Origin: Verrucomicrobiota bacterium
GTDB taxonomy: Bacteria > Verrucomicrobiota > Verrucomicrobiia > Verrucomicrobiales > Akkermansiaceae
Assembly (NCBI GenBank): GCA_030835305.1
Contig: JAURPJ010000095.1
Location: forward strand, 1 to 64,000
DNA: 64,000 bases
Direction: 5' to 3'
In this document: in pieces, positions 43,591 to 44,841 of the stretch
Numbering within the stretch: position 1 is the first letter of the stretch
Layout of the letters: every line of letters starts with the position of its first letter
Position numbers and translations under genes: made by a program
The notes under the pieces: model-generated
The model's database searches: none
What the model saw: the letters and a program-made list of their open reading frames with translations, nothing else
What the model was told of the DNA's origin: nothing

Positions 43591-44841
43591 GTGAATCTTC
43601 CAATCCTTGCCGCCACGCCCTTGCTGGCTTTGCTTCCGGCCCCTCTTTCCGCCGACAACACACACACACCGGCCCCGGCATTTGAATCTTCCCATCCCTG
43701 GATCACAAATCTCGACCTGGCCCTTGAGCAATCCCGCAAAACCAGCAAACCCATCCTCGCAGAATTCCGGTGAGAGACCTGAGCGGATTGCCGCGAATTT
43801 GAGGCACGGTTCGTGTCCACCCCACAAAACGGTCCACTCGGGAAACTACAGGAGAAGTATATCCGCCTCCGCATCACCAACATGGCTGAAGTTGATATCG
43901 GAGTCTTCGAAATGGATTTCAATACCACTTTCGGACTCTTTGTCCTTAACCACCGCAAGCAAGTCTACCTCCGCTATGGAGCCCGCAATGACGGCGGGGC
44001 CGAAACCTTCCTGTCCATCCCCAGTGTCGCCATCGCCTTGCAGCGGGGGCTCATTCTTCATGAGCGATGGAAGGCCGGAAGCTTCACCCCGCTACCGGCC
44101 GGAAAATCCAGGATGTCTCAAACCTTTCCGAACGTCCTGAAAACCGTGCGGGAAAACAAGTGCGTGCACTGCCATCAGGTGGCCGAGGGACAAGCCGTGG
44201 AAATCTTTGCCCTCGCTGATTTTGACAAAAAAACGTCGCCCTGGATCTTTCCAGACCCGGCAAAACTCGGCCTAAAACTGAAAGTGGATGATCCCATCGT
44301 CGTCGAGCACTCGACCGGTGCCGCCGCCAAGTCCGGAATCAAAAACGGAGAGGAAATCTTAAAAGTCGATGGCAAGACCGTCAGCACCTTCGCCGACATT
44401 CAATACGTCCTCCACCACCTTCCCCGTGATCGCAAGGAACTAACCCTGACCACCAATCAAGGCCCGCGAAAAATCGCCCTCTCCTCCCACTGGCGCGTCA
44501 CCGACCTCAATCGGCGCTCCATTGGCCACAAGATGGAACCATTCCCCGGTTTCTGGGGAAAGCCACTCACGATCGGTGAGAAGAAAAAATTGGGTCTTCC
44601 TACCGAAAGCTTTGCCACCCGCGCAACCAAATTCTGGGTTATCACCCCGGGCAAGCAAGCCGGCATGAGAGAGGGCGACGTCGTCATCGCTGTCGATGGA
44701 GTCAGCTCCAGCCCCCTTGCCGTAAACGCCCAGGTCTATATTCGCCTCAACTACGAGACAGGAGACGAGATCACCGTCAAATTCCTCCGAGAGGGAAAGA
44801 CCGGGGAAGCAACGTATACGCTCAAAGCAAAACCGTGGTAG
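43591..44841 (+). CDS. Candidate selenoprotein: secreted thioredoxin-like UxxU + CxxCH + PDZ protein with two in-frame UGA codons (43771-43773 and 43780-43782)
   Basis: Single frame from GTG 43591 to TAG 44841; only internal stops are two TGAs in ILAEFR(TGA)ET(TGA)ADCREFEARF. Signal peptide at N-terminus, CVHCH haem-like motif, PDZ-like C-terminal segments (GIKNGEEILKVDGKTVSTFADIQYVL; GMREGDVVIAVDGVSSSPL). Confidence 0.72.
43800..43819 (+). promoter_or_regulatory. Candidate bacterial SECIS stem-loop
   Basis: T-G-(A bulge)-GGCACG / GTT loop / CGTGTC-C-A: 8 bp with one bulged A and a G-first apical loop; loop begins 26 nt after the second UGA and 35 nt after the first. Confidence 0.55.

Follow-up and report, generated by a model that had tools for sequence, protein, structure and literature searches.

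Two in-frame UGA codons that lie nine nucleotides apart, followed closely by a short stem-loop, raise the question of whether a single RNA element can direct Sec insertion at both. The codons interrupt a gene at positions 43591–44841 of the window, the 64,000-nucleotide stretch of an Akkermansiaceae (Verrucomicrobiota) genome that we analyzed; this gene and the features described within it lie on the forward strand. UGA1 occupies 43771–43773 and UGA2 occupies 43780–43782, and under the standard code the gene is split into two open reading frames (ORFs), 43591–43773 and 43813–44841. The usual description of a bacterial SECIS has a single hairpin directly downstream of a single UGA. A sequence-only reading of this locus had proposed that the stem-loop is a SECIS-like hairpin correctly spaced for both codons. 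We conclude, with a probability of about 0.83, that the hairpin is a bacterial SECIS inside the coding region of a Trx7/PDZ selenoprotein gene, serving UGA2 and probably UGA1 as well, to yield a UxxUxxC active site.

Read through both UGAs as Sec from an assumed GTG start at 43591, the gene yields a 416-amino-acid product. It comprises an N-terminal leader, a Thioredoxin_7 domain with UxxUxxC, a CxxCH motif, and two PDZ matches, the Thioredoxin_7 and PDZ assignments coming from Pfam. Its match to NCBIfam NF041199 (Trx7/PDZ domain-containing (seleno)protein) reaches 353.1 bits, where the curated cutoff is 300, and spans positions 2–388 of 390; it is the only match above cutoff in this genome. 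With UGA translated as Sec, the active site reads U-E-T-U-A-D-C, in the context LAEFR-U-ET-U-ADC-REFE. U61 (UGA1) and U64 (UGA2) thereby occupy the first and second CxxC positions of the thioredoxin motif, at which NF041199 proteins carry Sec or Cys. The protein would presumably have a redox role. Between its thioredoxin and PDZ parts lies a CxxCH motif, CVHCH (44161–44175), of a type found in 86 of the 88 gene copies described below; it is a possible candidate heme c site.

Both UGAs are kept in relatives at 95%, 72% and 71% identity. For the codons downstream of the UGAs, comparison of the window gene with these three relatives gives dN/dS values of about 0.1–0.23. Two other UxxU pairs with a computable ratio gave 0.08 and 0.23 (some other dS values were saturated), and two diverged copies from genome G153 gave 0.55 against each other. 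The downstream part is therefore selected as protein.

The genome also carries the complete set of genes that marks a Sec-decoding organism, namely SelA, SelB, SelD and tRNA-Sec, the last identified by ARAGORN as a tRNA-SeC with anticodon TCA. More broadly, SelB matches occur in 17 of 19 tested genomes that bear a Sec copy (in G538 the match does not reach the family cutoff); the remaining two, with no match, are assemblies 65% and 86% complete. No SelB match was found in 20 of the 28 genomes that have CxxC copies only. The SelD gene of the window's genome (L074, G000:C27:15132–16061) contains an in-frame UGA of its own; downstream of this UGA lies a hairpin, TTACGCAA-GTT-TTGCGTGG, whose loop starts 33 nt after it. 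Relatives show this SelD hairpin with GTT, GTC or GTG loops, and L088 exchanges A-T for G-C pairing. Since the SelD hairpin was chosen as the best within a range, the evidence for it is conservation in several genomes rather than the single match. Elsewhere, then, this genome apparently employs a similar loop at a spacing near that of UGA1 (33 versus 35 nt). Genome G532 has two SelD matches, each with an in-frame TGA.

The hairpin in the window spans 43800–43819. Direct reading of the sequence bore out the proposed structure in every coordinate and pair: a 5' arm GGCACG (43803–43808) and a 3' arm CGTGTC (43812–43817) enclose the loop GTT (43809–43811), the outer pairs T800–A819 and G801–C818 (last three digits given) flank a bulged A802, and 804–816 is the sole G-U pair. 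The loop starts 26 nt past UGA2 and 35 nt past UGA1, the very distances put forward before. This loop may resemble that of E. coli fdhF. RNA folding of 43794–43830 returned exactly this hairpin at -7.1 kcal/mol, and in the 75-nt piece 43771–43845 it returned within a longer helix (-24.2 kcal/mol); pieces of 50–60 nt that include UGA1 preferred a competing fold. Only the window and its closest sister have the arrangement of T800–A819 and G801–C818 around a bulged A802. In most relatives 801 pairs with 819 and 802 with 818, and both of these combinations are mismatched in the window.

Taken alone, the window hairpin is no better than chance. With 6 bp plus 2 across the bulge, it is among the weakest in the Sec set. 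Dinucleotide shuffles gave z-scores of about -0.2 to -1.2 for the pieces that fold as proposed, making the single-sequence test uninformative. The evidence that the hairpin is real is comparative.

We searched the class, the family and two orders for relatives, added extra stretches, and obtained 88 distinct copies covering the motif, of which 49 are CxxC, 24 CxxU and 15 UxxU. A scan of genome contigs by P0001 turned up three near relatives only. The codon at the UGA1 position is TGC or TGT in CxxU and CxxC relatives and TGA in the 15 UxxU copies, and none of the 88 copies has TAA or TAG there. At the UGA2 position, all 39 Sec copies have TGA and the 49 Cys copies have TGC or TGT. Three side observations concern individual loci. 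L045 (G096:C174:11500–13118) has an extra in-frame TGA 31 codons past the motif, replacing an Arg of its relatives, which is possibly an error or the mark of a decaying copy. The sister genome (L048 / G253:C64:101281–102447) carries, in addition to its UxxU gene, a second copy of CxxC type, which groups with CxxC genes on the protein tree. L046 (G153:C8:26000–29200) holds a tandem pair of strongly diverged UxxU Trx7/PDZ genes.

The hairpin is a consistent feature of the UGA-bearing genes. It occurs at the homologous place in 39 of 39 UGA-bearing relatives, with the best-scoring loop starting 25–27 nt after UGA2. The loop follows the pattern G-[G/U]-U, with the G at 809 and the U at 811 invariant across all 39 Sec copies. 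Scored in a fixed register, a mean of 7.71 of 8 positions pair in CxxU genes and 6.27 in UxxU genes, versus 2.29 in CxxC genes. The common register suits UxxU hairpins less closely than CxxU ones. In L062–L064 the score is low because the pairing is displaced by one or two bases; the stem there has at least five pairs and a GGUCU-type loop.

The stem also covaries. In a set of 20 Sec sequences the bases pair in 85% of cells, and for five of the eight pairs both sides have changed. Its covariation score of 0.387 compares with 0.192 (s.d. 0.028) for shuffled sequences, a control that ignores relatedness, and with at most 0.135 for slid partners, a control that retains it. Compensatory changes, a synonymous one included, are seen in GGG..GTC versus GAA..GTT (L017, L019) and in GCA..CAT versus ACA..TAT (L021, L022). 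Synonymous recoding gene by gene gave a median P of 0.0165 in Sec genes and 0.60 in Cys genes. The expectation that TGA-containing orthologues would conserve the hairpin with compensatory changes was thus upheld, and Cys relatives lack it. We judge the hairpin real on the strength of this covariation and of its absence from Cys relatives.

Whether the same element also serves UGA1 can be approached from the distribution of the two codons. UxxC is absent from the 88 motif-covering copies, and Sec at position 1 only ever accompanies Sec at position 2. In a protein tree built from 87 copies, where gain and loss of UxxU are indistinguishable and some long branches are uncertain, the UxxU label changes six times, with at least five changes forced by well-supported branches. 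The 15 UxxU genes are scattered over this tree, and all of them keep UGA2. We found no further hairpin shared across the UxxU genes. Together, the scattered UxxU genes, the constant UGA2, the lack of another common hairpin and the lack of UxxC indicate that one SECIS probably decodes UGA1 too. The earlier proposal of one element for both codons is in this way strongly suggested by the comparison of sequences. We consider it likely that a single coding-region SECIS decodes both UGAs, which lie 35 and 26 nt ahead of its loop and 9 nt from each other, with one base change separating CxxU from UxxU and several such changes within the window's class.

Folding also suggested that a lower helix may surround both UGA2 and the hairpin (43778–43842; 43778–43783 with 43837–43842, and 43785–43790 with 43830–43835). 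The -24.2 kcal/mol fold that contains this helix makes up 42% of the ensemble, and by energy the helix is strong only in the window and some of its close relatives. Recoding of the flanks gave a mean z of -0.01 in the Sec set versus -0.33 in the Cys set, so we rejected the lower helix as a family feature.

The hairpin might instead act as a SECIS for UGA2 only, with UGA1 decoded through some other local signal. One candidate is a mini hairpin, GCGG-AUUG-CCGC, directly after UGA2 (43783–43794). It occurs in the window as well as in its sister and L056/L057, and similar stems of 4 bp, built from other bases, can be read in L059, L060 and the second G153 copy. Yet it is missing from the UxxU genes L062–L064 and L067–L068, lacks a G at either of the first two positions of its loop, and is partly explained by amino-acid constraints. 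Only 13 nt, moreover, separate UGA1 from the start of this loop, which is less than the 16–37 nt given in PMC13188914. The mini hairpin of some UxxU genes could help at UGA1, but a division of labor between separate signals strikes us as improbable.

Two further readings would dispense with a SECIS altogether. The stem could have arisen by chance, or as a by-product of the codons for F-[DE]-x-Q-[VLF]-V-R, and indeed 13% of synonymous recodings of the window codons pair as well as the native hairpin. Against this, the Sec set shows a strong excess of pairing that is not seen in Cys homologues sharing the same protein fold, and the compensatory changes in L017/L019 and L021/L022 include a synonymous one; we regard a non-functional stem as very unlikely. 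We give slightly less credence still to the idea that the UGAs are real stops, either in a decayed gene or upstream of a separate 342-amino-acid ORF starting at GTG 43813, as standard-code ORF calling would have it. Real stops would split the thioredoxin motif, and they would have to fall exactly on the CxxC positions, where TAA or TAG never appears. Nor do they fit a downstream dN/dS well below 1, full Sec machinery in the genome, or the retention of both UGAs in the 95%-identical sister.

Returning to the reading we favor, a SECIS serving UGA2 and probably UGA1, SelB with Sec-tRNA-Sec would bind the apical loop, G-(G/U)-U, and bring Sec to the ribosome at UGA2, which precedes the loop by 26 nt. 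UGA1, 35 nt from the loop, would probably be served by this element as well, producing the UxxUxxC active site. The hairpin would be placed to suit UGA2, which has Sec in every copy where the motif has any. With the first motif codon already within reach of the SECIS, one change there from TGC or TGT to TGA would suffice for a second Sec. This member of a known selenoprotein family would then most likely carry two selenium atoms instead of one in its active site.

The 24 CxxU and 15 UxxU genes, with the same hairpin at the same place, form a natural series for studying how far SelB reaches from the loop. The same series allows one to ask whether one hairpin inserts two Secs. For annotation, expecting one Sec in the NF041199 family would leave UxxU members truncated or misread. 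If our reading is true, bacterial Sec insertion is less strictly a matter of one hairpin for one UGA than the usual account holds.

How does the locus compare with known systems? In the open-access literature, where absence proves little, we found no description of UxxU in the NF041199 family and no paper on one bacterial SECIS shared by two UGAs. The bacterial SECIS model given in PMC13188914 specifies a loop of 3–9 nt, an upper stem of 4–16 bp, a G within the first two loop positions, a UGA-to-loop distance of 16–37 nt and a minimum free energy of -7.5 kcal/mol or lower; the passage that gives these limits leaves the stretch to be folded unspecified. The window hairpin has a loop of 3 nt, a stem of 6 contiguous bp with 2 more across the bulge, G809 as its first loop base, and spacings of 26 and 35 nt; the loop-G and spacing rules invoked for it earlier agree with this model. 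Against the energy limit, with its unspecified folding stretch, stand -7.1 kcal/mol for the hairpin alone and -24.2 kcal/mol for 43771–43845. The hairpin thus resembles the canonical element (the bSECISearch model, E. coli fdhF type) as an in-frame hairpin downstream of a UGA, with G then U in a 3-nt loop and a 6-bp upper stem. It differs in its energy when folded alone, which at -7.1 instead of at most -7.5 kcal/mol is marginal, and in that a single element apparently serves two UGAs separated by 9 nt.

The protein likewise belongs to a described family. It shares with NF041199 the domain order, Sec at the second motif position and a SECIS directly downstream, and its score exceeds the curated cutoff. 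However, PMC13188914 gives NF041199 as CxxU with one Sec, whereas the window gene has UGA at both CxxC positions. NF041199 is probably the CxxU family called 'putative secreted serine protease MucD' in the Global Ocean Sampling study (PMC2398784), which is likely its first report. These two sources (PMC13188914, PMC2398784) also give UxxU motifs in Prx-like, mercuric-reductase-like and FmdB families, which have the same two Sec per redox motif with codons 9 nt apart but are different proteins. Both the family and the SECIS type are already known, and what is probably new here is the combination of UxxU with a SECIS that its two UGAs probably share.
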